Shown here: positions 16,911-33,692 of the stretch, piece by piece | Layout of the letters: every line of letters begins with the position of its first letter | Numbering within the stretch: position 1 is the stretch's first letter | DNA from: Bradyrhizobium arachidis | Lineage (GTDB): Bacteria > Pseudomonadota > Alphaproteobacteria > Rhizobiales > Xanthobacteraceae | Length of the DNA: 64,000 nt | Assembly: GCF_015291705.1 (NCBI RefSeq) | Contig: NZ_CP030050.1 | Span: 8,494,001 to 8,558,000, forward strand | Direction: 5' to 3' | Position numbers and translations under genes: made by a program | Notes under the pieces: model-generated | What the model was told of the DNA's origin: nothing | Database searches by the model: none | What the model saw: the letters and a program-made list of their open reading frames with translations, nothing else

Positions 16911-17253
16911 TGCAGGACCGTTGGGATGATGACGGCCGTTAAATCAATGGGCCTTGCGGGGCGAATGAATTGCGCCGCAGCATCTCGCAAGAGTGTCACA
17001 TAAGTCTGGAGATCGGGCGGCGAATGAGGGTTTGACACCGCTTTCACCCGTTAGCGTTAAATTTGCCCTTTCGCTGAAGCGGTTTTCGCCATCACGAATG
17101 AAACCATGATCCAGGCTGGCACATCGGCCCCAGCGTCACGTGCATCGACGCAACAGGCATCCGGCAAGGGTTAACCCAACAACAGGAAATCCCCGGCGTC
17201 GCAGGGCGACGCTTGGTACCATAGCGCGTTGGTTCCCAAAGGAAGATTCCGAC
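16911..17253. other. Divergent intergenic region with two inverted repeats
   Basis: 343 bases without a supported gene, between the flippase and the GH10 gene. It is locally less GC-rich around 17035-17100. It holds GGGTTAACCC at 17168-17177 and GCGTCGC-AGG-GCGACGC at 17196-17212, both upstream of the GH10 start and possible operator or leader hairpins. An open frame from 17140 extends the GH10 gene upstream, but it is arginine-rich and lacks export features. Confidence 0.6.
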
Positions 17254-18321
17254 GTGACCAGGCTCGACAGACGCGAATTTCTTCTCGGCGGCGCCGCAGC
17301 ACTGGCGGCGGGTGCAACGGCATCGGCCGCGCCGGCGTCAAAGCTCGCCCAGCGCCGTCCCGGCTATGGCGCAGCCGCGACACTGTGGGACCTGCAAGCC
17401 GATCCGCGGCTTGGCGAGGCCATCAGCACCTATTGCACCCAGGTGGTGCCGGTGCTCGAGCTGAAATGGCCGATGATGCGGCCGGATGCGCATACGTTCG
17501 CGTTCGAACGCGCCGACGCCATCTATGAATTCGCGCAGAAGAACGATCTGACCATGCGCGGCCACGCCCTCGCCTGGTATCACGACATTCCGGACTGGAC
17601 CAAGCAGATCAAGGACGCCAAAGGCGTCGAGCGCGCCTATGTCGATCACATCGGCACCGTCGTCTCCTATTACAAGGACAAGCTGACGTCGTGGGACGTC
17701 GTCAACGAGCCGATCCCCGACAATCCCCGCAGTGTGAAGGACCGGCGCGACACGTTCTGGACGCAGCATCTCGGCGAGCGCTGGATCCCGCTGGCCTTCC
17801 GCACGGCGGCCGCGGCCGATCCCTTCGTCAAGCTCGCGATCAACGAATACGACATCGAATCGGCGAAGGACTCGTTCATCGCCAAGCGCGCGGCGTACCG
17901 CACCCTGATCATGGACCTGCTCGACCAGGGCGTGCCGCTGCATGCAGTGGGCCTGCAATCGCATCTGCATGCCGAGCTCGAGATCGATACGCACGGCCTC
18001 GCCGAGTTCGTCACCGAATTGCGCTCGTGGGGGCTCGAGGTGTACGTCACCGAGCTCGACGTCGACGATCAGAAGCTGGCGGGCAGTCCGGCAGAGCGCG
18101 ATGCCATCGTCGCCAAACGCGTCGATGATCTCCTGACGGCGATCTCGACCAGCGGCCCGGTGCGCTCGATCCTGACCTGGGGCATATCCGACCGCTACAG
18201 CTGGATCAACGGCGTCTTCGCCCGCAAGGACAAGCAGCCGAACCGGCCCTTGCCGCTCGACGGCGAGTTCAAGCCAAAACCGTTCATGGACGTCATCAGC
18301 AAGTTCACGAAGGAAGTTTGA
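17254..18321 (+). CDS. Tat-exported GH10 family glycoside hydrolase (endo-1,4-beta-xylanase-like)
   Basis: 355-aa secreted glycosidase. The GTG at 17254 is chosen because AAGGAAG lies 8 bases upstream and the product opens with a twin-arginine signal (DRREFLLGGAAALAAG). Family GH10 is shown by MRGHALAWYHDIPDW, by the acid/base in WDVVNEP (E152) and by the nucleophile in VYVTELDVDD (E267). The ending TWGISDRYSWI is also family-typical. GH10 enzymes are retaining endo-xylanases. Beside a flippase and a glycosyltransferase-like gene, a role in trimming the cell's own exopolysaccharide is as plausible as plant xylan attack. Confidence 0.92.
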   Translation: MTRLDRREFLLGGAAALAAGATASAAPASKLAQRRPGYGAAATLWDLQADPRLGEAISTYCTQVVPVLELKWPMMRPDAHTFAFERADAIYEFAQKNDLTMRGHALAWYHDIPDWTKQIKDAKGVERAYVDHIGTVVSYYKDKLTSWDVVNEPIPDNPRSVKDRRDTFWTQHLGERWIPLAFRTAAAADPFVKLAINEYDIESAKDSFIAKRAAYRTLIMDLLDQGVPLHAVGLQSHLHAELEIDTHGLAEFVTELRSWGLEVYVTELDVDDQKLAGSPAERDAIVAKRVDDLLTAISTSGPVRSILTWGISDRYSWINGVFARKDKQPNRPLPLDGEFKPKPFMDVISKFTKEV

Positions 18322-19382: not shown

Positions 19383-20177
19383 TTAGCCATCCGAGGGCAG
19401 TCCCTGCTCTATCCTCCGAAACCGCAGCGGCGAAAGCGCGGAGGCGCGCTGCCACCAGTCCGCGACGCGGTCGTCGAGCGCGGTCATACCTCGGCCCAGG
19501 CCGGGATAGATCCGAATCTGCTGCACCGCCTCGGCTTCGAAGCCTTTGCCCTTGCGCGTGATCTTGATCGCGGCACCTTCGCGGTCCCGCTGGGTCAGCG
19601 GCACCAGGAGGCGGCCACGCGGGCGGAGCGACTGGAGCCAGAGCGGATGCGGATGCGAGAAACCGGCGTGGATGATGATCACGTCAGCTGGTTCACGGAT
19701 CTCCTCGCAACCGTCGCCATGAAACACGATGACGTTGTGATAGCGGCGCAGGAAGCTCGCAGCGCGGTACGCCAGAACCTTATCGCAATCGACCGCCATC
19801 ACGCGCCCTTTCGGGCCGACCATCTTCGACAGTATCGCGGAGTAATAGCCGAGCCCGCAGCCGATCTGCACGACGCGGTCCTTCTCCTTGATGTCGAGCA
19901 CGTCGATGAAATGCGCCCACAGGCTCGGCAGACCCACGTCCAGCTTGCGGCGCGCGTCGATCGCGACCAGCACATTGTCATAGAGATGAACCGGATCGGC
20001 ATCGGGCGTCAGCCGGTAGCTCCGCGCTGCCTCGCTCTTGACGCGCCACGGCCCTCTGGCCAGAAAATCCTCGCGCGGGACGGCAGCCAGTGCTTCGAGC
20101 AAGCGCGGTGAGGAAATCCGCTCGCGCTTCGCAATCATCGCGACGTAACGCGCACGCGCGGCGGCAAGGTCATTCAT
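19383..20177 (-). CDS. Protein-L-isoaspartate O-methyltransferase-like protein
   Basis: 264-aa SAM-dependent methyltransferase of the PCMT fold. The N-terminal ALAAVPREDFLARGPW matches the VPRExF region of isoaspartyl methyltransferases. SAM motif I is VVQIGCGLGYYSAIL, and the acidic loop is VMAVDCD. The family's catalytic region is weakly conserved, and the C-terminus lacks the usual LVxPVG strand apart from RLLVPLTQ. It may therefore methylate another substrate. Its ATG overlaps the stop of the upstream cyclase gene (ATGA), so the two are translationally coupled. Confidence 0.83.
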   Translation of the reverse strand: MNDLAAARARYVAMIAKRERISSPRLLEALAAVPREDFLARGPWRVKSEAARSYRLTPDADPVHLYDNVLVAIDARRKLDVGLPSLWAHFIDVLDIKEKDRVVQIGCGLGYYSAILSKMVGPKGRVMAVDCDKVLAYRAASFLRRYHNVIVFHGDGCEEIREPADVIIIHAGFSHPHPLWLQSLRPRGRLLVPLTQRDREGAAIKITRKGKGFEAEAVQQIRIYPGLGRGMTALDDRVADWWQRASALSPLRFRRIEQGLPSDG

Positions 20178-23100
20178 CGCACGGGATCAGCCGGTTCGCG
20201 CACGGGTACGTCCGCGCCGAGCTCGTTGACGAGCTGCATCGCCTGCTTCAGGTCGGGCGTATAAAAGCCCTCGCTGAACTTGCCGACGATCGGCACGAGC
20301 AGGAGGCTTGCATGCTCGCGCTTGCCGGCCTCGTGCGACAGGCGCGCGAGGCTGACGGCGGTGCGGAGCTCCCAGGACAGCGCGCCCTGCTTGCGCGCGG
20401 TCTCCAGCGACAGCGCGAACAGATCCTCGGCCTCCTGCACCGAGGCCGGGTCGCGGTCGAGCAGCGTGATCTCGCCTTGCAGGCGGTAGACCTCGGCGAG
20501 GTAGGAGTGATCGCCGGTCCGCCGCGCGGTCGCGAGCGCGCCGTCCAGCGCGCGCAAGGCGGCCTCGCGCATCCCGACCTTGGCATAGGCTTCCGCCAGC
20601 AGGCAGCGGAACCAGCAGCCGGCGAGCCAGGAATCCATCGCCTCGTATTCGTCGAGGCCGAAGCGCATCTGGCTGATGCCTTCGTCGGCCTCGCCGAGCT
20701 GCGCCAGCGCCCAGCCGCGCAGGATCGCGGCCTGCTGCTTCCAGTGCAGGAAATTGTGCTCGGTGGCGATGATCATGGCGCGGTTGGCATAGTCGCGCGT
20801 GCCCTCGATATCGCGCAGATGCTGGCAGAGATAGGCGCCGAACACGAGCGCGAAGGCGAGCGAGAAGGGATGGCGGATCTTCTCCGCATGCAGGATCGCC
20901 TGCTCGCTGTGCTGGCGCGCCGCGTCGGGCCGGCCGAGGAACCACAGGAGGTAGCCGAGATAGGACAGCGAGACGACGCCGGGATCGGTGCCGTGCCGCT
21001 CCATCAGATCGGAGTGCAGGTCGGGGCTGTAGAGGTTGATGCAGCGGTGCAGATGATGCTGGGACGCGGCAAAGCGGCCGCGATAGAGCATGGTCATCGC
21101 GATCGAGCGGTGCGCCTCGATCAGATAGCCGGTCTGCTGCGCCGGGTGGGTCCGGTCGTTGAGCCGCTCGCGCTTGGCGAATTTCAACAGCTCGACGCTG
21201 AGATCGTGCGCGCGGGTGAGGTCAGCGCGGATGAAGTGACACACCCAGAGGCCGCGCGTGGCGGCGAAGGCCTTTTCCTCGTCGTCGAGCTGCTGGCCGA
21301 GCTCGAGCGCGCGGGTGTAGTTCTCCTCGACCTCCTGCACCGCATAGCCCTTGGCCGCGATCAGCGCGTTGCCGAGCGCGATGCGCAGCTCGAGCTCCAT
21401 CTCGTCGGCGCCCTGCATGCGCGCATTCGCCTGCACGACGCTGAGGCCGCGCCGGAGATGGCCGATTGCCTCCAGATTGGCGCCGCTCTTGGCCGCCTGC
21501 TTGCCGGCCTTGAGCCAGAAGCTGGCGGCGCCCTCGCTCTGGCCCGATTCGGTCAGGTGGTGGGCGAGCAGCTCCGGCTCGCGCTCGGTCTTCTCCGGAT
21601 ACATTTCGCCCAGCACCTGCGCGATGCGGGAATGCAGCTTGCGCCGCTCGCTGTGCAAGAGGCTCGCATGCGCGGCGTTCTGGATCATCACATGCTTGAA
21701 GGAGTAGAGCGCATCGGGCGGATGGCCGCGGCGCATGATCAGCCCCGCTTCTTCCAGATGATTGAGCGCGGCCTCGATCTGCTCGGCCGGCGTATTGGCG
21801 ACCGCGTGCAGCGTCTCGTAGGAGAACTCGCGGCCGATGGTGGCGCCGATCTGCGCGATCCGCTTGAACGGCCCCATCCGGTCCAGCCGCGCCATCAGCG
21901 AGTCGGTCAGCGTTGCCGGGATCGCGAGCTGCCGCCACGGGCCCGACAGCACGTAGCGTCCGTGCCGTTCGGTCAACAGGTTGGATTCGAGAACGGTCTT
22001 GGTCAGCTCCTCCAGGAACAGCGGTACGCCGTCGGTCTTGACGATGATCTCCTCGACGACCTCCTTGGGAAGCTCCCTGCCGGCGACGCGCTCAACCAGC
22101 GTCGTGCGGAGCTGGCGGCTCAGGCGGTTCAGCACCAAGGTGGTGATATGCGAATGCGCGTTCCAGCTCGGCTGGAATTCGGAGCGCGCGGTGATGATGA
22201 CCAGGACCGGCCGGTTCTGCACCCGATCGACCAGAAGGTCGATCACCTCGCGCGAGGTCGGATCGATCCAGTGCAGATCCTCGAACGCGATCACCAGCGG
22301 CATCTCGCGCGCAAGGCCAAGGAAGTGATTGACCAGCGCCGCGACCGTCGCGTCCTTCTGCTGCTGCGGCGACAGCTCGAGCGGGGGATAGCGATCGCCG
22401 GTCGGAATCGACAGCAGCCCGGCGAATAGCGGCGTGACCTGCTCGATGTCGCCATGGGCGGCGGCGATCGCGGTCTCCAGGTTCGCGAGCGACAGCGCGG
22501 AAGCATCCTCGCGGTCGAGGCCAAGCGAGAATTTGAGCTGCTCGGCAAACGGATAGAACGCGGTGGAGGTGTAATAGGGCGAGCACTGGAACGAGACCTG
22601 GCCATGGCGGTCGCCCGAGATCCGTTCGAAGATCTCCTGGATGATGCGCGACTTGCCGATGCCGGGCTCGCCGAACTTGACCACGACCTGGCCGTCGCCG
22701 TCCTTGGCCTGCTGCCAGCGGCCCATCAACAGCGCGATCTCCTCCTCGCGGTTGACGAGCGGCGTCAGCCGGCCGCCCATGGCGGCGGCAAAGCGGGTCT
22801 CCACCCGCGTGGCGCGCACCACGTGCCAGGCCTGCGCCTTCTCCGAGATGCCCTTCAGGACATGGACGCCGAGATTGCGGTAGTCGAATTTCCCCTTCAG
22901 CAGCGAATGGGTGGAGGAGGAGATCACGACGCCATTGGGCGGCGCCAGGGCTTGCAGGCGCGCGGCGAGATTGACGGTCTCCCCGACCGCGGAGTCGCGC
23001 TCCTCGGTGCCCTGTCCGACGAGGTCGCCGACCACGACGAGCCCGGTCGCGATGCCGATGCGGACGGCGGGCGAGTGGGTGAGCGCCCCGCGCGGCTCGA

Positions 23101-23644
23101 TCGCGCGCGCGGTCGAGAGCACGCGCACGATCTCGAGCCCGGCACGCACCGCGCGCTCGGCGTCGTCCTCATGCGCGGTCGGATAACCGAAATAGACCAG
23201 AATGCCGTCGCCGACGAAGCGTGCGGCGAAACCTTCGTAATGCTTCACCACGCGGACGCAGGTTTCGCGAAAACTCGCGATCATGTCGCGCACGTCTTCC
23301 GGATCGAACTGCACCGAGAGCGAAGTTGAATCCACCATGTCGCAGAACATGGTGGTGAGCTGGCGCCGCTCGGCGCCGACTTCCGTCCGTGCTTGCGGGC
23401 GCGCCGCTGGCGCCGGCGTCTCCGCGGTTTCCGCCTTGAACAGCGCGGCCATCGCCCGCTGGAGCCGCTTGCGATCGCCGAGCGGCAATCCGAGTCCGAC
23501 CAGATCCGATTCGGTCAGATCCGGCATGACATCGAGATCGAGGCGGTGCTGCGCGAAGAGATCGCTGTAATGGCCGAGGCCAATGGCCTCGAGCCAGCGC
23601 TTCAGCCCGCCTTCCGCCCCGATGTCCGGCTCGTTCTCCAGCAT
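20174..23644 (-). CDS. SAM domain-class III adenylate/guanylate cyclase-AAA ATPase-TPR protein
   Basis: 1156-aa multidomain signalling protein. Order: sterile-alpha-motif domain (about 13-68, LKRWLEAIGLGHYSDLF); class III cyclase (about 94-280) with metal-binding D102 (FCDMVDST) and D146 (FVGDGI) and the NxxxR pair N225/R229; ATPase of the STAND/AAA type with P-loop GEPGIGKSR (325-333) and a later Walker B-like IAFEDLHWID; then a long C-terminal helical repeat (TPR-like) region. ATG 23644 is preferred over the upstream GTG at 23698. The cyclase could make cAMP or cGMP when the TPR part senses a partner. It is coupled to a methyltransferase and diverges from the NRPS gene. Confidence 0.92.
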   Translation of the reverse strand: MLENEPDIGAEGGLKRWLEAIGLGHYSDLFAQHRLDLDVMPDLTESDLVGLGLPLGDRKRLQRAMAALFKAETAETPAPAARPQARTEVGAERRQLTTMFCDMVDSTSLSVQFDPEDVRDMIASFRETCVRVVKHYEGFAARFVGDGILVYFGYPTAHEDDAERAVRAGLEIVRVLSTARAIEPRGALTHSPAVRIGIATGLVVVGDLVGQGTEERDSAVGETVNLAARLQALAPPNGVVISSSTHSLLKGKFDYRNLGVHVLKGISEKAQAWHVVRATRVETRFAAAMGGRLTPLVNREEEIALLMGRWQQAKDGDGQVVVKFGEPGIGKSRIIQEIFERISGDRHGQVSFQCSPYYTSTAFYPFAEQLKFSLGLDREDASALSLANLETAIAAAHGDIEQVTPLFAGLLSIPTGDRYPPLELSPQQQKDATVAALVNHFLGLAREMPLVIAFEDLHWIDPTSREVIDLLVDRVQNRPVLVIITARSEFQPSWNAHSHITTLVLNRLSRQLRTTLVERVAGRELPKEVVEEIIVKTDGVPLFLEELTKTVLESNLLTERHGRYVLSGPWRQLAIPATLTDSLMARLDRMGPFKRIAQIGATIGREFSYETLHAVANTPAEQIEAALNHLEEAGLIMRRGHPPDALYSFKHVMIQNAAHASLLHSERRKLHSRIAQVLGEMYPEKTEREPELLAHHLTESGQSEGAASFWLKAGKQAAKSGANLEAIGHLRRGLSVVQANARMQGADEMELELRIALGNALIAAKGYAVQEVEENYTRALELGQQLDDEEKAFAATRGLWVCHFIRADLTRAHDLSVELLKFAKRERLNDRTHPAQQTGYLIEAHRSIAMTMLYRGRFAASQHHLHRCINLYSPDLHSDLMERHGTDPGVVSLSYLGYLLWFLGRPDAARQHSEQAILHAEKIRHPFSLAFALVFGAYLCQHLRDIEGTRDYANRAMIIATEHNFLHWKQQAAILRGWALAQLGEADEGISQMRFGLDEYEAMDSWLAGCWFRCLLAEAYAKVGMREAALRALDGALATARRTGDHSYLAEVYRLQGEITLLDRDPASVQEAEDLFALSLETARKQGALSWELRTAVSLARLSHEAGKREHASLLLVPIVGKFSEGFYTPDLKQAMQLVNELGADVPVREPADPVR

Positions 23645-23780
23645 GGTGATTTCTGCCCGACCCTCACTCCGTCGAAGGGCTTTGGGTCCCTCAACCACAG
23701 ATTTTGGGGCCCGAACTTCACCTCAGACTGGACGCGTTCCCTAAGTCTTGGGAAGAATAGCCCAATCAGATCAAAAGGGA

Positions 23781-26700
23781 ATGGCGTTGTCCGACATTGC
23801 ATCCGGAGCGGGAGAGGGATCGGACGGCGAAAGTGCCGAAACCGGAACCTTTGCCCATATCGGCGGTCTTCTCGAGCATTATGCGCGGAAGACGCCATCA
23901 GCACCGGCCCTTCTCGCCCCTGGCCGGCCGGCCCTCACCTATGCCGGACTGGACGAGCTGATCCGGCATCTGATCCGTAACCTGCGCGGGTCTGGCATCG
24001 GCCCTGCCGACCGCATCGCCGTTGCATTGCCGCGCGGTGCCGACAGCGCGCTGGCGCTGATCGCGGTCGCATCAAGCTGCACCTGCGTTCCCGTCAATCC
24101 CGATCTGACCGCGGACGAGCTGCAGCGCTATTTCAGCGAACTGGAGCTGACCGCGCTCGTCACCCGGGCCGACATGAACTCACCGAGTCGTGACGTCGCC
24201 AGGGCGCTCGATATCGCGGTGATCGATTTCGTGCCGGGACCGAAAGACAATCTCGGCGGCTGCGCATTCATCGGCCCGACGATCGGTCCGGCCAGCAGCA
24301 GCGGCGCTTCGCGCGGCGACGACGATGCGTTCATTCTGCTCACGTCGGGCACGGCGGCGCGGCCGAAAATGGTGCCGCTGACACAGCGCAATGTGTGCCT
24401 CTCCGCGCGCAATGCCGGCCGCGTGCTGTCGCTCGCGCCGAACGACCGCCTGCTCAACGTTCTGCCTCTGTTTCACGCCCATGGCCTGATCTCCGGCCTG
24501 CTGACGGCGCTGGCCGCAGGCTCCAGCGTGATCTGCACCGAGGGTTTCGATGCCGCGTCCTTCTTCGGCTGGATGCGGGAGCTGCAACCGACCTGGTACA
24601 CGGCGGTGCCGACCATCCATCGCGCGCTGCTGACGGCGGCGGAAGCCGACCCGGACCGCGCCCGCTCGTCGTCGGTGCGCGTGATCCGTTCGGCCTCCGC
24701 CTCGCTCGCGCCCGCGATCCTGAACGGATTGGAAGCGACGTTCGGCGTTCCCGTGCTCGAGACCTACGGCATGACCGAAGCGGCCTCGCAGATCGCGGCC
24801 AATCCGTTCGAGTTGCGCAAGGTCGGATCTGTGGGGCGCGCCGCAGGCCCCGAGATCGCGATCATGGACGAGACCGGCCGGCTGCTTGCGAGCGGCGAGC
24901 GCGGCGAGATCATGCTGCGCGGCCCCAACATGAGCCGTGGCTATTACAATGACGAGGCGGCGACGCGGGCCGCGTACCGCGACGGCTGGTTCAGGACCGG
25001 CGATCTCGGCTATCTCGATGCCGACGGCTACCTCTTCATCGTCGGGCGCATCAAGGACGTCATCAACCGCGGCGGCCAGAAGATCTCGCCGCTCGAAGTG
25101 GAAGAGATCCTCTTGAGCCATCCCGCGGTGCTGGAGGCCGGCGTGTTCGCCGTCCCGCACCCAAAGCTCGGCGAGAACGTCGCCGCCGTCGTGGTGCTGC
25201 GGCCGAATTCAGAGGCGACCTCGGACCAGCTGCGCCAGTTCGCGCGCAAGCGCCTCGCCGCCTACAAGGTGCCGAGCCTGATCCGCAGCGTGGCGGCGCT
25301 GCCGAAAGGCGCCAGCGGCAAGGTCAAGCGCAATGCGCTGGCCGAGCTGATCGCGACGGCAAAGGACGCCGACGAGGAGCAACTGCCGCGGAACATGCTG
25401 GAGACCCAGCTCGCGGAGATCTGGGCCGGCCTGCTGGAGCTGTCGCAAGTCGGTATCGATCAGGACGTCTTCGCGCTCGGCGCGGATTCGCTTGCGGTGA
25501 CGCAGATGCGCTCGCGCCTGCGGGAGCGCTTCAATGTCGACTTCTCGTTCGAGGACATCTTCGATTGCGCCACGGTCACTGCGCTTGCGGCGCGGATCGA
25601 GACCGCCGCAAGCCGTCGTGAAGCGGCACTCCCGGCCTGGCGCCAGGCCAGAGAAACCGACGCGCCGCTGTCGTTCCAGCAGCAACGGATGTACGTGCTC
25701 TCGCGGCTCGATCCGACGCACTACAACTATAATGTCGTCGAAGTCGCGCTGCTGAAGGGGCAGGTCGACGTCGCCGCGCTGTCTGCGGGGCTCACCGCGA
25801 TCTGCGCGCGCCACGAGGCGCTACGCTCAGTTTTCGTCGAGCAACAGGGCGAGCCGGCACAGCGGGTACTGCGATCGCCCCCTCGATTCGATCGGGTCAA
25901 GCTCAAGCCTTGCCCTGCCGGCAAGCGGGCCAAGGTCATCAGGCGCGAGGCGCTCAAGCTCGCGCAATATCCGTTCGATCTGTCGCGCGAGCCGCCGCTG
26001 AAGGTCACGCTGCTGTCGTTCGGCGCATCCAGCCACGTGCTGGTGGTCAATGTGCATCATCTCGTCACCGACGGCTGGTCGCAGCGGCTGTTCTGGGAGG
26101 AGCTTGCCGCCCATTACAGTGCCGCGCGCAAGAAGAGCGTAGCGGCGCTTCCCTCGCCCACCTTCCAGTATCGCGACTTCGCGCTGTGGCAGCAGAGCTG
26201 GGCGCAGACGCCGGCGGCAAAACAGCAACTCGATTACTGGAAAAACCAGCTCGACGGCGTCACCACGCTGCCGCTACGGACCGACCGGCCGAGGCCGGAG
26301 ATTTGGAGCGGTCACGGCGCCCGTCATTATTTCGAGTTCTCCACGCCGCTGTCGGGCGATATCCGCGCGCTGAGCCAGGACCAGGGCGTCACGCCGTTCA
26401 TGACGCTGCTCGCGGCGTTCCAGTGCCTATTGTCCCGCCACACCGGGCATGAGGACGTCGCGACCGGATCGCTGATCGCCAACCGTAACCAGATCGAGAG
26501 CGAGCGCCTGATCGGGCTGTTCGCCAACACGCTGATCCTGCGCAACGATTTCAGCGGCGATCCGAGCTTTGGCGGAATGCTGCGGCGGGTGCGGCAGGTC
26601 ACGCTCGATGCCTACCGCAACCAGGACCTTCCGATCGAGGAGGTGCTGCGCGCCTTTCAGGTGGCGCGAAGGACGGATGGCAATCCGCTGTTCCGGATCA

Positions 26701-29700
26701 TGTTCATCCTCCAGAATGCCTCGATCGAGGCGGCGCGCTTCCCCGGCCTGTCGACGCGGCGGATCGAGATCGATCCAAAGGTCGCGCGCTTCGACATCAC
26801 GCTCGAGCTGGTCGAGGCCGACGGCCTCTTCACCGGCTTCTTCGAATACGCGACCGATCTGTTCGACGCGGCGACGATCGAAGGCATGGCTGCGCAATTC
26901 AAGACCCTGCTCAAGGCCGCCATCGCCAACCCGGAGCAGCACATCTCGCGCCTGCCGCTGCTGGCTGAGGCCGAACGCCGGCAGTTGCTGGCGCAAGGCC
27001 GCGGAGCCCGCGTCATTTTTGGCAAGCGCGGCAAACTCAGCGAACGCTTCGATGCCCTAGCGAGGAAGACACCGAACGCGATCGCCGTGTCCGATGGTCG
27101 AACGTCCGTGACCTATCGCGAGCTGGCGCGCCGCAGCGAGGCGGTAACCGGCTGGCTGGCGCGCGAAGGCATCGGTGCCGAGAGCGTGGTTGCCCTGCTT
27201 GCAGAGCGCGGGCCCGACTTGCTGGCCGCGATGATGGGTGCGCAACGCGCCGGCGCGGCGTTCCTGAATCTCGATCCCGAGCAGCCGCCGGCGCGGCTCG
27301 CGACCATTTTGGGATCAAGCTGCGCCCGGATGCTGCTGGCCGGTCGCGCGCAATCGCCGATGGTCGAGGCGCTGCTCGAACCGCTGGTCGCGCGCATCCA
27401 TGTGGCCGAGCTCGAAGACGCGATCGCGCCAGGCGCGACCAAGCCGGCCCGTGCCGCGCGGCGCGACGCCGCAAGCCTTGCCTATCTCGTCTACACCTCC
27501 GGCTCCTCCGGCGCGCCGAAGGGCGTCATGATCGAGCAGCGCGGACTGTCGAACCATCTGGCCTCGCTCATCGCCGAGCTCCGCCTTTCGGCCAGGGACG
27601 TGATCGCCCAGACCGCACCGCAGAGTTTTGTCATCTCGGTCTGGCAGTTCCTCGCCGGCCCCATGGTCGGCGCGCGCGTCCATGTCTGTGCCAATGCGGT
27701 CGTGCAGGACCCGATCCGGCTCGCGCAGGAGATCACGCGCGAGGGCATCACGGTGCTGGAGATCGTGCCGTCACTGCTGCGCGTGATCCTCGATCGCATG
27801 GACGAGGCGCAGATCCGGCGCGCCTTCGCAAAACTGCGGCTACTGATCTCGACCGGCGAGCCGCTGCCGGTCGATCTCTGCCGCGCCTGGTTCGACCGCT
27901 GCCCGAAAGTGCCGCTGGTCAACGCCTATGGCGCGTCGGAATGCTCCGACGACGTCTCCCTGCATCGCCTGACCAAGGCGCCGCCGACCGCGACGAGCAA
28001 CGTCGCGGTCGGCGCGCCGCTGCCGAACACGCAGCTTTACGTGCTCGACGCAAATCTCGAGCCGCAGCCGGTCGGCGTCGTCGGCGAGCTCTGCATCGGC
28101 GGCGCCGGCGTCGGCCGCTTCTATGTCAACGATCCCGCACAGAGCCGGCAGCGTTTCCTGCCCGATCCGTTTGCGCGCCAGGCCGGCAGCCGTCTCTACC
28201 GGACCGGCGACCTCGCCCGCCGCCGCAGTGACGGCACGATCGAGTGCCTCGGCCGCGCCGACCAACAGGTCAAGGTCCGCGGCTACCGTATCGAGCTCAA
28301 GGAGATCGAGGCCGCGCTGGCCGAGCATCCGGCATTGCGCGCCGGCATCGTCGAGCCGCGCCGCGAGGCGAGCGGCGATGTCAGGCTGATCGCCCATATT
28401 GTCGCAAAACCGGGCAGCCGGAGCAGCGCCAGCGAGCTGCGCGAGTTCCTTAAGAGCCGGCTACCGGTCCACGCCATCCCGTCGGCGTTCCTGTTCCTGG
28501 AGCAAGTGCCGCTCAATGCCCACGGCAAGATCGACCGGTCTGCGCTGCTGGCACCCGCCCAGGTGGACGCGTCCGGACCGGATGCGGCCGTGCCGGCGCG
28601 GCGCTTCACCGAAAAGGTGCTGTCGGACATCTGGACCGATTTACTGAAAGTCGAGAGCATCGGTGTCACCGACAATTTCTTCGACCTCGGCGGCCATTCG
28701 CTGCTGGCGGGCCAGGCGATGGCGCGCGTCGCCCGTGCGCTCGGGGTGTCGCTGCCGATCAAGACCATCTTCGAGGCACCGACGATCGAAGAGCTCGCCC
28801 GGCGGGTCGACGAGGCCGTGGCGGCAAAGCCGCGCAAGCCTGCTGCAACGGCGCCGCTCCTGACCGAGCGCGGACCTCCGACACTCTCGGTCGCGCAGGA
28901 CCAGATGCTGCGGATCGAGCAGAACCTGCCGGGACTCCCACTGTTCAACCTGCCCTTTGCCTTCCATCTCCAGGGCCCGCTCGATCCGGCCGCCCTGGCG
29001 CAGGCGATCGATGATGTCGCAGCCCGGCACGAATCGCTGCGGACCACGTTCGGCTGGAACGGCGAGGAGCCGACCAGCCGCATCATTCCGCCCGGCAAGC
29101 TCCGCCACCTGGTGACCGTCGAGACGATCGGCGACGGTCATCCCCACAACAATAAGCGCCGCAAGGCCCTGGAGCTCAGGAAGATCGACCTCCTGATCGA
29201 ACAGGAGACGTACACCCCGATCGACACCACACAGGCACCGCTGCTGCGAGCCCGGTTGTTGCGGCTCCACGCGAACGATCACGTGCTGCTGCTGACGTTG
29301 CATCACGCCATCGTCGACGGCTGGTCGATCGGCGTGCTGTTCGAGGAATTGTCGAGCCGTTATGCGGCGCTGGCCGGATATCCGTCGGTGCCGCTGCCGA
29401 AATCGCCACCGGCTTTCGCGGATGTCGCACGCTGGCAGCGCTGGTGGTGCGGCACCGACGCCGCCCGCCGCCAGGCCGCCGACTGGACCGAGAATCTGCG
29501 CGGCGCGGTCGCTCTGTTCGACGGCGAATCAAGCCCGAGCCCATCCACCGGCCATCATCCGGTCAATCTCGAGCCCGACCTGATCGCACGGCTCACAGCC
29601 TTTGCCGGCCAGCACAATGGCACCTTGTTCATGTGCCTCCTCACCGGCCTGAAGGCCCTGCTGCTGGCGCGAACCGGCCGTAGCGACATCGCAGTCGCCA

Positions 29701-30224
29701 CCGCCATGGCCAATCGTGCCCAGCCGGACACCGACCGAATCGTCGGCCCGTTCGAGAATACGGTGATCGTCCGCACGAAAATCACGCCGGAGCTGTCGTT
29801 CGTGGAAGCCCTGGCCCGGGTGCGCCAGAGCGTGCTCGATGCGCATGCGCGGCAGGAGCTGCCGTTCAACCTCGTGGCCGACCATCTGGAGCAGGAGGGG
29901 ATCGATACCGCCGCCCTGCTCCAGGTTTATTTCACACTGCAAAATCCGCTGCGCCAGCCGCTCGACCTGCCCGATCTCATCACCGCCTCGATCGGCAACA
30001 TCGCGCGCGAAGGCCAGCCGGTGCTGCCGATCGACCAGACTTGGCTGTCGCTGATGCTCAAGGAGCGCCCAACCGGAATCACGGGGTCATGCAATTACAA
30101 AAGCGAATTGCTCGACGGCGGTATGGTCGGCGAATGGATGGAGGATCTCGTCGCGCTGCTGGTGGCCGCTAGCGCCCAACCCAACGCACCGCTCGGCCGA
30201 TTGCTCGCGCGCCGGGCGGCATGA
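23781..30224 (+). CDS. Non-ribosomal peptide synthetase, A-PCP-C-A-PCP-C
   Basis: 2147-aa megasynthetase. Domains: A1 (about 28-535; LLTSGTAARPKMV at 187-199, FRTGDLGYLD near 404-413, catalytic K514 in ASGKVK); carrier 1 (S570 in LGADSL); condensation 1 (about 627-1060; HHLVTDG 759-765); A2 (about 1084-1600; YTSGSSGAPKG from 1238, YRTGDL near 1473, K1583 in HGKIDR); carrier 2 (S1640 in GGHSLL); condensation 2 (about 1701-2140; HHAIVDG 1841-1847). No thioesterase, reductase or epimerase follows. A1 resembles oxalyl-/acyl-CoA ligases (AAE3/Pcs60 type) more than amino-acid domains. The A2 pocket lacks the usual Asp. ATG 23781 directly follows AAAAGGGA, an unusually tight ribosome site; a TTG at 23748 is the alternative. 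Confidence 0.95.
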   Translation: MALSDIASGAGEGSDGESAETGTFAHIGGLLEHYARKTPSAPALLAPGRPALTYAGLDELIRHLIRNLRGSGIGPADRIAVALPRGADSALALIAVASSCTCVPVNPDLTADELQRYFSELELTALVTRADMNSPSRDVARALDIAVIDFVPGPKDNLGGCAFIGPTIGPASSSGASRGDDDAFILLTSGTAARPKMVPLTQRNVCLSARNAGRVLSLAPNDRLLNVLPLFHAHGLISGLLTALAAGSSVICTEGFDAASFFGWMRELQPTWYTAVPTIHRALLTAAEADPDRARSSSVRVIRSASASLAPAILNGLEATFGVPVLETYGMTEAASQIAANPFELRKVGSVGRAAGPEIAIMDETGRLLASGERGEIMLRGPNMSRGYYNDEAATRAAYRDGWFRTGDLGYLDADGYLFIVGRIKDVINRGGQKISPLEVEEILLSHPAVLEAGVFAVPHPKLGENVAAVVVLRPNSEATSDQLRQFARKRLAAYKVPSLIRSVAALPKGASGKVKRNALAELIATAKDADEEQLPRNMLETQLAEIWAGLLELSQVGIDQDVFALGADSLAVTQMRSRLRERFNVDFSFEDIFDCATVTALAARIETAASRREAALPAWRQARETDAPLSFQQQRMYVLSRLDPTHYNYNVVEVALLKGQVDVAALSAGLTAICARHEALRSVFVEQQGEPAQRVLRSPPRFDRVKLKPCPAGKRAKVIRREALKLAQYPFDLSREPPLKVTLLSFGASSHVLVVNVHHLVTDGWSQRLFWEELAAHYSAARKKSVAALPSPTFQYRDFALWQQSWAQTPAAKQQLDYWKNQLDGVTTLPLRTDRPRPEIWSGHGARHYFEFSTPLSGDIRALSQDQGVTPFMTLLAAFQCLLSRHTGHEDVATGSLIANRNQIESERLIGLFANTLILRNDFSGDPSFGGMLRRVRQVTLDAYRNQDLPIEEVLRAFQVARRTDGNPLFRIMFILQNASIEAARFPGLSTRRIEIDPKVARFDITLELVEADGLFTGFFEYATDLFDAATIEGMAAQFKTLLKAAIANPEQHISRLPLLAEAERRQLLAQGRGARVIFGKRGKLSERFDALARKTPNAIAVSDGRTSVTYRELARRSEAVTGWLAREGIGAESVVALLAERGPDLLAAMMGAQRAGAAFLNLDPEQPPARLATILGSSCARMLLAGRAQSPMVEALLEPLVARIHVAELEDAIAPGATKPARAARRDAASLAYLVYTSGSSGAPKGVMIEQRGLSNHLASLIAELRLSARDVIAQTAPQSFVISVWQFLAGPMVGARVHVCANAVVQDPIRLAQEITREGITVLEIVPSLLRVILDRMDEAQIRRAFAKLRLLISTGEPLPVDLCRAWFDRCPKVPLVNAYGASECSDDVSLHRLTKAPPTATSNVAVGAPLPNTQLYVLDANLEPQPVGVVGELCIGGAGVGRFYVNDPAQSRQRFLPDPFARQAGSRLYRTGDLARRRSDGTIECLGRADQQVKVRGYRIELKEIEAALAEHPALRAGIVEPRREASGDVRLIAHIVAKPGSRSSASELREFLKSRLPVHAIPSAFLFLEQVPLNAHGKIDRSALLAPAQVDASGPDAAVPARRFTEKVLSDIWTDLLKVESIGVTDNFFDLGGHSLLAGQAMARVARALGVSLPIKTIFEAPTIEELARRVDEAVAAKPRKPAATAPLLTERGPPTLSVAQDQMLRIEQNLPGLPLFNLPFAFHLQGPLDPAALAQAIDDVAARHESLRTTFGWNGEEPTSRIIPPGKLRHLVTVETIGDGHPHNNKRRKALELRKIDLLIEQETYTPIDTTQAPLLRARLLRLHANDHVLLLTLHHAIVDGWSIGVLFEELSSRYAALAGYPSVPLPKSPPAFADVARWQRWWCGTDAARRQAADWTENLRGAVALFDGESSPSPSTGHHPVNLEPDLIARLTAFAGQHNGTLFMCLLTGLKALLLARTGRSDIAVATAMANRAQPDTDRIVGPFENTVIVRTKITPELSFVEALARVRQSVLDAHARQELPFNLVADHLEQEGIDTAALLQVYFTLQNPLRQPLDLPDLITASIGNIAREGQPVLPIDQTWLSLMLKERPTGITGSCNYKSELLDGGMVGEWMEDLVALLVAASAQPNAPLGRLLARRAA

Positions 30225-30366
30225 CCAGCTATACAGCACGGACGAATACGGGTTCACTCGCCAAAGCTGTGAATGGGCAAGTTGCATCTTGATTATTTGA
30301 CGCCACCGCGCAAGATTATTCCCGCGTTTTGATTTGGACGATCATTTTCAACCGGGGGAGTGTGTT

Positions 30367-30537
30367 ATGGGTTTCATCAAATTTGCCAAGGGTACCTCGT
30401 TGAGCGACAAGGACCGAAAGGCCCTGCAAAAGCTGCTGAGCAACGAGAAGAAGAAGCTCCAGGCCGCGCTGAAGGACGTCGACGCCAGCCTTTCGGTGCT
30501 GGGCGGCGCGAAGAAGGCCAAGAAGAAGAAGAAGTAA
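30367..30537 (+). CDS. Small lysine-rich protein in the NRPS cluster
   Basis: 56-aa protein with a strong ribosome site (GGGGGAG at 30354-30360) and ATG at 30367. It consists of a short start (MGFIKFAKGTSLSDKDRK), a probable amphipathic helix (ALQKLLSNEKKKLQAALKDV) and a polylysine tail (KKAKKKKK). It is very basic, so nucleic-acid or membrane binding is possible. It lies 142 bases after the NRPS stop on the same strand. Whether it belongs functionally to the cluster is unclear. No family is recognised. Confidence 0.75.
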   Translation: MGFIKFAKGTSLSDKDRKALQKLLSNEKKKLQAALKDVDASLSVLGGAKKAKKKKK

Positions 30538-30769
30538 GGATCCTCGGCCGGGAGGCCGCACGAATCTTCAGGCTTCATTTACGGAAATCGGCCGCTCGCG
30601 CGTCGAGTTGGGGTCTCGCACAAGCTTGCGCCTGTAAACCGGCCTGCAAATCGACAAGAATTTGCCCGGGTGGACCGTTACAAGCGGTCCGCTCAGTTGA
30701 TTCTTGCTCAGTTGTTTCTTCCGTCGGGACCGGCAATCCAGCCTCCGCCCGATGCCAAAGGCCCAATTG

Positions 30770-31501
30770 ATGGCAGACGACAAAATTGAACTGTTTGTCG
30801 GATTGATCGAGACCATTGACGCGCCGGGCGCCGCCGATGCGTGCCGTCGCCTACTCTCGGTCGACGAACGGGTCCGCGCCGACCGCTTCGTGTTCGAGCG
30901 GCACCGGCGGCAATATATTTTCGCGCACGCGATGCTGCGCCTGGCGCTGTCCCAGGTCGCGCCAAACGTCGCGCCCTCCGACTGGTCGTTTGGTGCCGGG
31001 CGATACGGACGGCCGTATGTCGCAGCGCCGAAGACCTCGACCGCACTGCATTTCAGCCTGTCACATGCCGACGGCTGCGTCGCCTGCGTCGTGTCCCGGC
31101 ATGAGGCCGTCGGTGTCGACGTCGAAACCGTATCGCGGCGGGTTGCGCCACTGTCGACCGCGCTTCGCTTCTTCGCGCCGGAAGAGGTCGAAACCTTGCG
31201 CGGGCTCCCGGAACCTGCGGCGATCGAGCGCTTCTTCGATTACTGGACGCTCAAGGAGGCCTATCTCAAGGCCAGGGGGTTTGGCCTCAATCTGCCGCTC
31301 GACGCCTTCGCGATGCAGGTTTCGCGCGAGGCGATCGAGATCAGCTTCAAGCCCGATATTGCCGATGATCCCCAGGGCTGGCGCTTTTCGCTGTGCTCGC
31401 CCTCCCCCTCGCATCGCCTTGCGATCGCCGACGGCTCCCGTGCGGACGGCGGCCTTCCCATCAGCCGCAACGCCTGGCCGTTCCAGGAAGCGGCGGAATG
31501 A
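30770..31501 (+). CDS. 4'-phosphopantetheinyl transferase (Sfp type)
   Basis: 243-aa enzyme that transfers phosphopantetheine from CoA to a carrier-protein serine, here most likely S570 and S1640 of the neighbouring NRPS. Sfp-family motifs are present: FSLSHADGCVACVVS, the magnesium site AVGVDVE, and FDYWTLKEAYLKARGFGL. Length fits the Sfp group rather than AcpS. ATG 30770 is preferred because AAGG lies 8 bases upstream; ATG 30752 is the alternative. The stop overlaps the next ATG (ATGA), so the flavin monooxygenase gene is translated with it. Confidence 0.93.
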   Translation: MADDKIELFVGLIETIDAPGAADACRRLLSVDERVRADRFVFERHRRQYIFAHAMLRLALSQVAPNVAPSDWSFGAGRYGRPYVAAPKTSTALHFSLSHADGCVACVVSRHEAVGVDVETVSRRVAPLSTALRFFAPEEVETLRGLPEPAAIERFFDYWTLKEAYLKARGFGLNLPLDAFAMQVSREAIEISFKPDIADDPQGWRFSLCSPSPSHRLAIADGSRADGGLPISRNAWPFQEAAE

Positions 31502-32478
31502 CGCTACCGCGGCTGCGCGTCTTTCCGGCGATCTCGCGCAACCGCGACCCTAAAAAATATGTCGGCGAGCTGATGGGCGTGGCGCAGTTCGCCGACCGCA
31601 ACGGCTTCGAAGGCATTCTGCTGTTCGAAGGCAACGACGTGTTCGTCGAGCCCTGGGCGATGGCCCAGCACATCATGGCGGAAACAGCGCGGTCTTCGCC
31701 ACTGATCGCGGTCAACCCGGTCTACATGCACCCGTTCACGGCGGCGAAGTTCGTCTCCTCCTTCGCGCAGCTCTACGGCCGCAAGGTCTATCTCAACATG
31801 ATCACGGGGACCGCAGTCAGCGACTTGCAGGGGCTGGGCGACGAGCAGTCGCATGGCGATCGCTATATCAGGCTCGGCGAGTTCGTCGCGCTGATGCGCC
31901 AGCTGCTCTCGAGCCCGCGCCCGGTGACTATCGAGGGCCGGTTCTACCGCGCCAGCAATTTGCAACTGCGTCCGCGCCTGCCGGCGGAGCTGATGCCGGA
32001 ATTTTTGATCGCAGGCCAGTCCGAGGCGGCGCAGCGCGTGGCAAGGGAGACAGGCTGCATCAAGATGCAGATGCTGCCGCCCGATCTCGATCACGGTCTC
32101 GATGCGCCGGGCATGAACTTTGGGATTTTCGCCCGCGAGAGCCGCGACGAGGCGCGGCGGGGGGCGAAGGCGCGCTTTCGCGATAATGTCGATGATCGCA
32201 AGCTGCTGGCGCTCACGGTCGAGAACAGCGACTCCGTGTGGAAGCGGCGGCTGTATGAAGGACAAAGCGGCGAGCTTCAGGACAATGGCTATTGGCTGTT
32301 GCCGTTCCTGACCTTCCAGGCCGACTGCCCCTATCTTGTCGGCAGCTACGCGGAGATCGGCGCGAAGCTGAAAGCGTTCGCCGCGAAGGGCCTGACCACG
32401 ATCATGCTCGACATGGTCGCGGATGAGAGCGAGATGCAGCACGTCTGCAAGGCGCTCGCGGCGAGCGGGATGTTTTAG
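31498..32478 (+). CDS. LLM-class (luciferase-like) flavin-dependent monooxygenase
   Basis: 326-aa TIM-barrel flavoprotein of the bacterial luciferase/alkanesulfonate monooxygenase (SsuD) superfamily. Seen are FADRNGFEGILLFEGND, the SsuD-like run KFVSSFAQLYGRKVYLNMITG, a loop with HGDRYIRLGEFV, and PEFLIAGQSEAAQRVA for FMN phosphate binding. It overlaps the phosphopantetheinyl transferase gene by 4 bases. In peptide clusters such enzymes often hydroxylate or decarboxylate carrier-bound intermediates, so a tailoring role is likely, though sulfonate oxidation cannot be excluded. Confidence 0.88.
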   Translation: MTLPRLRVFPAISRNRDPKKYVGELMGVAQFADRNGFEGILLFEGNDVFVEPWAMAQHIMAETARSSPLIAVNPVYMHPFTAAKFVSSFAQLYGRKVYLNMITGTAVSDLQGLGDEQSHGDRYIRLGEFVALMRQLLSSPRPVTIEGRFYRASNLQLRPRLPAELMPEFLIAGQSEAAQRVARETGCIKMQMLPPDLDHGLDAPGMNFGIFARESRDEARRGAKARFRDNVDDRKLLALTVENSDSVWKRRLYEGQSGELQDNGYWLLPFLTFQADCPYLVGSYAEIGAKLKAFAAKGLTTIMLDMVADESEMQHVCKALAASGMF

Positions 32479-32666: not shown

Positions 32667-33692
32667 TCACCTTGCCTCTTCAAACCCCGCCAGCACCGAG
32701 GTCAGGTTCGCGCCCAGAATATCGGAGAGATAGCCGCCTTCCTGCACGAACACGGTGGGCAGGCCGAGCTTGGCGATGGCCTGGCCGATGCGCCGGAAGC
32801 CGGGCGTGGTGACGGCGAGGCCGCGCAGCGGATCGTGCTCGGAGGCATCGAGGCCGAGCGCGATGACGAGGGCGCCGGGCGCAAAGGACTCGATCGCCTT
32901 GCGCGCAACGTCCATCGCCTGGATGTAGTCGTCATCGCCGGTGCCGATGGCGAGGGGAATGTTCAGATTGGTGCCGAGGCCCGGGCCCTCGCCGCGCTCA
33001 TGGGCATAGCCCCACACGAAGGGATAGTACGCAACGGGATCGGCGTGGATCGAGATCGTGTAGACGTCCGGCCGTGCGTAAAAAATGCCTTGCGTGCCGT
33101 TGCCATGATGGACGTCGACGTCGAGGATCACGACGCGCTCGTGCTTGAGCCGCAGATGTGCGGCTGCGATCGCGCTGTTGTTGAGGAAGCAGAAGCCGCC
33201 GGCCATGTCGCGATAGGCGTGATGGCCGGGCGGACGGCAGAGCGCATAGGTCGCATCCTCGCCGTCCATCACCATCTGCGCCGCGGTGACAGCAACGTCG
33301 GTCGCAGCGCAGGCCGCGGCCCAGGTGCCGGGACCGATCGGCGCCGCGGTGTCGGCGGTGTGCCAGCCGAGCTTGCCGACGATATGGGTCGGATAGGTCG
33401 CGGCATGGCGCACGGGATGGATGTTGCCGATCATCTCCGGACCGGAATCGCCGAGCGCGGTCCAGGCGTCCCAGGCTTCGCTGAGGAATGTCAGGTATTC
33501 CGGGCTGTGGATGCGTGCACGCGGCCCCTGCCCGAATCCCTTGGGTTCGACCAGTTGATGCTTGCCGTCCTTCAGTCCCTTGAGCAGGCGGTCGGCGCGC
33601 TCGGGTTGCTCGGTGGTGCGCTTGACGACGCCGCGAACCAGGAAGAATTGCGGATCGTGGCTACGATGCAGTTCGGTATGGACGGCTTTCAC
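32667..33692 (-). CDS. Histone deacetylase family protein, acetylpolyamine amidohydrolase-like
   Basis: 341-aa zinc hydrolase of the arginase/deacetylase fold. The catalytic motifs are CRPPGHHAY (paired histidines) and VILDVDVHHGNGT (zinc-binding Asp-His), with the later zinc Asp in LGLDASEHD and the transition-state Tyr region QEGGYL. The start is GTG 33692 with GGAG 8 bases upstream. The opening KAVHTELHRSHDP and the length match bacterial acetylpolyamine amidohydrolases, which remove acetyl groups from acetylated putrescine, spermidine or related amines. It is convergent with the NRPS cluster across a repeat. Confidence 0.9.
   Translation of the reverse strand: MKAVHTELHRSHDPQFFLVRGVVKRTTEQPERADRLLKGLKDGKHQLVEPKGFGQGPRARIHSPEYLTFLSEAWDAWTALGDSGPEMIGNIHPVRHAATYPTHIVGKLGWHTADTAAPIGPGTWAAACAATDVAVTAAQMVMDGEDATYALCRPPGHHAYRDMAGGFCFLNNSAIAAAHLRLKHERVVILDVDVHHGNGTQGIFYARPDVYTISIHADPVAYYPFVWGYAHERGEGPGLGTNLNIPLAIGTGDDDYIQAMDVARKAIESFAPGALVIALGLDASEHDPLRGLAVTTPGFRRIGQAIAKLGLPTVFVQEGGYLSDILGANLTSVLAGFEEAR

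Follow-up and report, generated by a model that had tools for sequence, protein, structure and literature searches.

The question raised by this locus is how a nonribosomal peptide synthetase (NRPS) that ends in a condensation domain, with no thioesterase behind it, releases its chain, and onto what. The locus lies in Bradyrhizobium arachidis, the genome of which is a single contig of 9.87 Mb, and the window, meaning the whole stretch of 64,000 nucleotides that was analyzed, covers positions 8494001-8558000 of that contig. On the forward strand, the window encodes an NRPS of 2,147 aa (23781..30224), a basic, helical microprotein of 56 aa (30367..30537) that is a candidate partner of the terminal condensation domain, an Sfp/HetI-like 4'-phosphopantetheinyl transferase (PPTase; 30770..31501), and a luciferase-like monooxygenase (LLM; 31498..32478) with a Bac_luciferase domain and an SsuD/MsuD-like fold, the gene for which shares an ATGA overlap with that of the PPTase. 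This cassette sits between two genes on the reverse strand, a divergent one for a SAM-cyclase-AAA-TPR protein (20174..23698, identified with Pfam), which is a possible but not proven regulatory partner, and one for a histone-deacetylase-family (HDAC) protein (32667..33692, PF00850), which forms the right-hand border and is placed outside the system. Pfam analysis of the ORF at 23781-30224 bore out the coordinates and the A-PCP-C-A-PCP-C string given in an earlier note on this DNA, and the Sfp-type PPTase and overlapping luciferase-like monooxygenase reported there were recovered as well. The genes named in that note were right; what it overlooked was the ORF at 30367-30537 between the NRPS and the PPTase, which encodes the most tightly linked partner, and the membership of the synthetase in a genus-wide family with a shorter form. 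Elsewhere in the window, a xylanase-like protein (17140-18321) scores 99.7 bits against a bifunctional xylanase model with a cut-off of 1200.

The synthetase has the order A1-T1-C1-A2-T2-C2. Four Pfam families, PF00501, PF13193, PF00550, and PF00668 (AMP-binding, AMP-binding_C, PP-binding, and Condensation), each match two stretches of it, and no thioesterase or reductase family is among the Pfam matches of the 2,147-aa protein. Adenylation (A), carrier (PCP or T), and condensation (C) domains thus lie in one chain, as is required of an NRPS, and HHxxxDG is intact in both C domains (VHHLVTDG and LHHAIVDG). The earlier note had described the loading as acyl-ligase-like, and this is supported by a phmmer search against the PDB, in which the best structural relatives of A1 (23841..25370, borders approximate) are oxalate/oxalyl-CoA ligases: 5ie0 at 396 bits, 6qjz at 395, and 8aff at 285, with the next family at 203. 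We take these three structures to be AAE3/Pcs60 oxalyl-CoA synthetases. A1 also scores 590.6 bits against the FadD7-related model PRK05852, the cut-off of which is 650. A protein of the shorter form matches 88 genomes in a class sample of 385 (E 1e-120); in 86 of these, all but the own genome and G020, only the A1 part is matched, at 43-50% identity and mostly in ORFs of 500-660 aa, which are stand-alone ligases. One gene of this type, on a Rhodobacteraceae plasmid, has genes for an ABC transporter and a 2-dehydropantoate reductase as neighbors, from which the substrate cannot be read. As the literature searched yielded no list of oxalate-binding residues, oxalate as the substrate of A1 is a lead only.

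The first carrier domain, T1 (residues 543-606; 25407..25598, PF00550), is followed by C1 (residues 625-1070; 25653..26990, PF00668) and by the second adenylation domain, A2 (27036..28580, borders approximate), which reaches 551 bits with TIGR01733. The specificity code of A2, read at the positions of the GrsA scheme, is V-I-W-E-I-T-A-D-D-K, and it has Val rather than the Asp235 of a canonical alpha-amino-acid-activating domain. Val235 is found in 119 of 120 among the homologues listed, the remaining one not being matched, and VIW(E/Q)ITADDK recurs in five divergent homologues; Asp235 is present in the nine other A domains aligned as controls, the pattern used to find these having missed the A domains of L134 and L135. 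Lack of Asp235 in an A domain argues against an ordinary alpha-amino acid, and because of Val at this position, A2 probably chooses something else. The chain ends with T2 (28611..28850, borders approximate, the second PF00550 stretch) and C2 (28851..30221, borders approximate). The HH of the motif is kept in C1 of 119 of 120 among the homologues listed, one having QH, and in C2 of 120 of 120. The terminal C domain without a thioesterase that the earlier note had pointed out therefore stands, by Pfam and by the HHxxxDG of C2, and with the C domain last and neither a thioesterase (TE) nor a reductase (R) domain in the chain, the protein has the layout of TE-less synthetases in which a terminal C domain releases the chain onto an amine.

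This synthetase is a conserved feature of the genus. A search of genome contigs returned 67 loci, and in 65 named Bradyrhizobium loci the NRPS is matched at a best-segment identity of at least 80%; at least 120 protein homologues listed aligned at 81% or more, and the organism, where named, was always Bradyrhizobium. On these comparisons, the conservation is far beyond chance. The A1 and C2 regions, the microprotein, and the PPTase are present in all 65 named loci, the LLM in 55, the same cyclase, in divergent orientation, in 64, and the HDAC gene in 63, the one locus without the cyclase (L082) being one that begins inside the NRPS. In two strains, G045 (L136) and G039 (L137), the NRPS frame looks broken, and the microprotein, PPTase, and LLM are still there. 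Beyond the genus, eight genomes in the class sample of 385 were matched by the NRPS at E ≤1e-180, two of them Bradyrhizobium (the own genome and G020), and in the other six the matches span ~1060-1250 of the 2,147 residues; in 798 plasmid records searched, all NRPS matches were below 60% identity. Two MAG loci considered as carriers of the same architecture, L103 and L105 (33-35%), proved to encode C-A-T multimodular proteins, with no acyl-ligase start in the ORFs seen. Within the genus, the cyclase and HDAC genes of G016 are direct neighbors, and a 19.9-kb stretch there holds no match to the NRPS, microprotein, PPTase, or LLM; judged from this arrangement, the site is empty or emptied.

The ORF for the microprotein lies behind the NRPS, at a median distance of ~146 bases from the end of the C2 match in the 65 loci. 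Its dN/dS relative to the window has a median of 0.29 (65 pairs), compared with 0.69 (65 pairs) and 3.1 (32 usable pairs) for the shifted frames, which indicates that it is under coding constraint. A profile built from 12 NRPS-adjacent members, which could miss diverged copies elsewhere, matches 28 of 60 same-genus genomes (E ≤1e-4), and weaker matches (E 0.017 to 0.9; threshold E 1, 15 genomes) were counted as chance. The same 28 genomes are those with a terminal-C synthetase, in two of them apparently broken, and the 32 others, including G028, have no match (Fisher 1e-17, phylogeny ignored). The microprotein is also found behind the divergent synthetases of G036, G038, G638, G006, and G046, and in G668 it lies on the opposite strand. 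None of five members reached a Pfam cut-off, and with 12 members the best Pfam E-value was 0.0003, for a family matched by one member; MbtH was absent from the matches of the five and from the best 25 of 33 families for the 12. A PDB profile search gave weak matches, mostly to helical or coiled-coil proteins (best E 0.029), and the AlphaFold2 model is a single helix of residues 14-55 (mean pLDDT 77, pTM 0.44). From the co-occurrence, we infer that the terminal C domain and the microprotein work together. Of its 31 matches, 29 adjoin an NRPS. One exception is in the own genome, at G000:C1:7518499 (L181:7071-12438, a locus taken from 7508000-7527900), where the microprotein lies between a cyclase that is 41% identical to that of the window and a flavin monooxygenase that is 69% identical to that of G038, with no NRPS; the other, G033:C66:142, is beside a similar flavin monooxygenase at a contig end. 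Given these two copies, the partner of the microprotein might be something other than the terminal C domain.

The pairing extends to a shorter, "mini" form of the synthetase, A-PCP-C, of ~1087 aa, with an A1 that is 54-58% identical and a C domain that is 43-46% identical to C2. The mini form occurs in 11 of 265 same-genus genomes and in many proteins from metagenome sources. Among the 60 genomes, the 28 with a terminal-C synthetase comprise 25 with the full form and three with the mini form only (G049, G051, and G009); G008 has both. The 11 mini loci (L118:6646-9909, L119, L120, L121, L171, L172, and L174-L178) all combine, within the stretch fetched, the synthetase with a microprotein and an ORF that has a cyclase domain, and no LLM or PPTase homologue was found in these stretches.

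The accessory enzymes are less strictly tied to the locus. The PPTase scores 59.9 bits with PF01648 (cut-off 25) and 119 bits with the HetI model (cut-off 370). The description of the locus in the earlier note as self-sufficient, with built-in activation, was only partly right and overstated the case: the PPTase occurs without the NRPS in G010 and G015, the NRPS of G036 and of G028 has no such PPTase beside it, the own genome has three PF01648 matches, and the LLM is missing in 10 of the 65 named loci. What is left in the G010 stretch is the PPTase together with a 31-aa remnant of C2 and a microprotein that has degenerated, and in G015 (89% complete) the PPTase is on a 6.9-kb contig; at E 1e-180, the NRPS finds no match in either genome. 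The PPTase and C2 remnant without an NRPS match point to loss of the NRPS with retention of the PPTase, at least in G010, and the PPTase probably serves other pathways as well.

The claim that the LLM belongs to the pathway fared better, as the enzyme accompanies the NRPS through rearrangements. An LLM of at least 69% identity is present in 25 of the 26 genomes with an A1-C1-A2 synthetase (the exception being G058) and in none of the 34 without, and the association holds in three gene arrangements, the order differing in G038 and G028. The stretch fetched from G638, a relative of G038, has no LLM match. A flavin monooxygenase is encoded between the NRPS and LLM of G038 (L123:12298-13932) and beside the NRPS of G638 (L173:12326-13990). 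The best match to the AlphaFold2 model of the LLM (pLDDT 83.6) is MsuD, with 22% identity, and FMNH2 is therefore its likely cofactor; against the SsuD model TIGR03565, the protein reaches 73.7 bits, below the cut-off of 518.2. A distant LLM group (36-37%) in G003, G022, and G043 adjoins a stand-alone A-domain-like ORF (28% to A2), and G022 additionally encodes there a formyltransferase-like protein and what may be a carrier protein, neither of which reaches its family cut-off; no such A domain appears in the ORF table of G041. L129:9584-14857 and L130:1536-6890, in each of which a related LLM adjoins an A-domain-like ORF that stands alone, represent a different small-molecule locus; L130 further encodes a putative carrier protein and a formyltransferase-like one.

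Taken together, these features suggest a pathway in which the PPTase would prime T1 and T2, A1 would load a carboxylic acid onto T1, and C1 would join this acyl group to the block selected by A2, which would not be a standard alpha-amino acid. Since no thioesterase is present, C2, partnered or helped by the microprotein, would off-load the chain onto a soluble amine, and the LLM, by its fold an FMNH2-type monooxygenase, would oxidize the product or a carrier-bound intermediate. To this reading of the locus as a conserved cassette for a small acylated amide, which is based on sequence, we give an even chance. C2 keeps HHxxxDG and so could use a carrier-bound acceptor in trans instead of a free amine. 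The assembly line would then be split, with the locus as its opening part and the acceptor loaded on a carrier elsewhere in the genome. In G028 (L124:5575-16066), the synthetase stops at T2 (A-T-C-A-T); the LLM comes next and then a separate C-A-T-TE protein. There is no terminal C domain, and C2 would therefore occupy the place of chain extension and release. The fetched stretch of G028 has no microprotein match. In favor of a split line are the second synthetase of G028 and the further A-PCP proteins encoded in the own genome (L133, L134, and L135). However, no second synthetase would fit into the gaps between NRPS and microprotein, microprotein and PPTase, and PPTase and LLM, at most 218, 329, and 91 bases in the 65 loci, and the 11 mini stretches fetched show no further A or C domain match; the stretch between the LLM and HDAC genes reaches ~6 kb in some loci. 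We regard a split line as unlikely.

The mini form raises another doubt about C2, as its C domain has HDxxxDG rather than HHxxxDG in 120 of 120 among the proteins listed, and perhaps does not catalyze condensation. The terminal C domain could have lost the condensing role or could serve as a recruitment platform in the manner of X domains, which likewise have a mutated motif (PMC8949500), and the microprotein and the LLM or other flavin monooxygenase would then bind there and act on a carrier-bound intermediate. The recurrence of flavin enzymes at these loci fits such a role, but the HHxxxDG kept by C2 throughout the full-form homologues listed, and the lack of any other release domain among the Pfam matches of the NRPS, make it rather improbable. 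The cyclase could also be more than a neighbor, with the product of the cassette or the microprotein regulating cyclase signaling, or the reverse. Besides its near-constant place beside the full form, all 11 mini loci have a cyclase-domain ORF nearby (ten within ~2 kb, one 5.7 kb off), from three groups in all, 12-kb windows around the 40 PF00211 matches of the own genome cover 4.6% of it, and the NRPS-less locus of the own genome pairs a cyclase with the microprotein. Against this, a cyclase ortholog is present in 26 genomes (E 1e-300), one of which, G016, lacks the NRPS, and in another, G009, the ortholog lies apart from the mini locus. The fetched stretch of G028 has no cyclase match, the association was spotted post hoc, and the intergenic consensus lacks TGTGA-N6-TCACA, for which reason the idea of a CRP site was dropped. 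A true partnership is accordingly quite doubtful, and the cyclase is a possible regulator only. A further reading is that the microprotein defines a new release mechanism, in which terminal C domains of this family would need a dedicated ribosomally made helix; in its boldest form, the microprotein itself would be the acceptor of the nonribosomal acyl group. No invariant reactive residue was seen in the microprotein alignment, and with no invariant lysine, a lysine acceptor is left as a long shot; we hold the new mechanism to be very improbable, and its boldest form, if true, would amount to nonribosomal acylation of a gene-encoded protein by a synthetase.

Much of Bradyrhizobium, a genus of soil and nodule bacteria that matters to agriculture, has kept this synthetase family, and its product was not found in the literature searched. 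The co-occurrence of microprotein and terminal C domain (28/28 versus 0/32) offers a simple way to test how domains of this kind select and handle their acceptors, and the mini form with its microprotein is a small system suited to in vitro studies. The earlier note knew of no matching product, and the published literature searched contained no description of a cluster of this kind or of a known product. The NRPS gene blr2108 we take to be part of the symbiosis island. It could not be matched to the locus from the accessible parts of three B. diazoefficiens papers and is probably another gene. As far as the available text of each goes, PMC3899966 names the NRPS genes of strain ORS285 in general terms only, PMC12815270 concerns a malleobactin-type NRPS with an epimerase and a thioesterase, and PMC10708946 gives cluster counts only.

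A1 differs from its nearest solved relatives, the oxalyl-CoA synthetases AAE3/Pcs60, by fusion to a carrier protein, and the LLM shares the fold of the FMNH2-dependent MsuD/SsuD alkanesulfonate monooxygenases but, at ~22% identity, falls far below SsuD cut-offs. MbtH-like proteins are small NRPS helpers encoded next to the NRPS, and the microprotein is likewise small and NRPS-adjacent; it differs in its predicted single helix, in tracking the terminal C domain, and in having no MbtH among the matches listed. Xenortide and rhabdopeptide synthetases also have a terminal C domain, which releases the chain onto amines, but they have another loading domain, and we know of no LLM or microprotein in these systems. 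In the glidonin synthetase, the C domain of the termination module adds putrescine to the chain, a placement of a soluble amine such as we propose here for C2, although the products are dodecapeptides and the description, in the part available, includes no microprotein (PMC10587159). A C domain with HQxxxDM is described as acting on streptothrisamine (PMC11546977). The closest logic to the mini form is that of OaaA/OaaACP/OaaC, A, ACP, and C enzymes that make fatty acid amides from free amines and combine, as here, a ligase, a carrier, and a C domain (PMC13142362, a preprint available in part). According to that portion of the preprint (PMC13142362), the Oaa enzymes are stand-alone proteins with a C clade that frequently has DHxxxDS, whereas the present domains are fused, have HHxxxDG (full form) or HDxxxDG (mini form), and come with a microprotein, so that the synthetase is not of the Oaa type. 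The cassette is real, conserved, and apparently undescribed, a known enzyme class with a previously unrecognized small partner.
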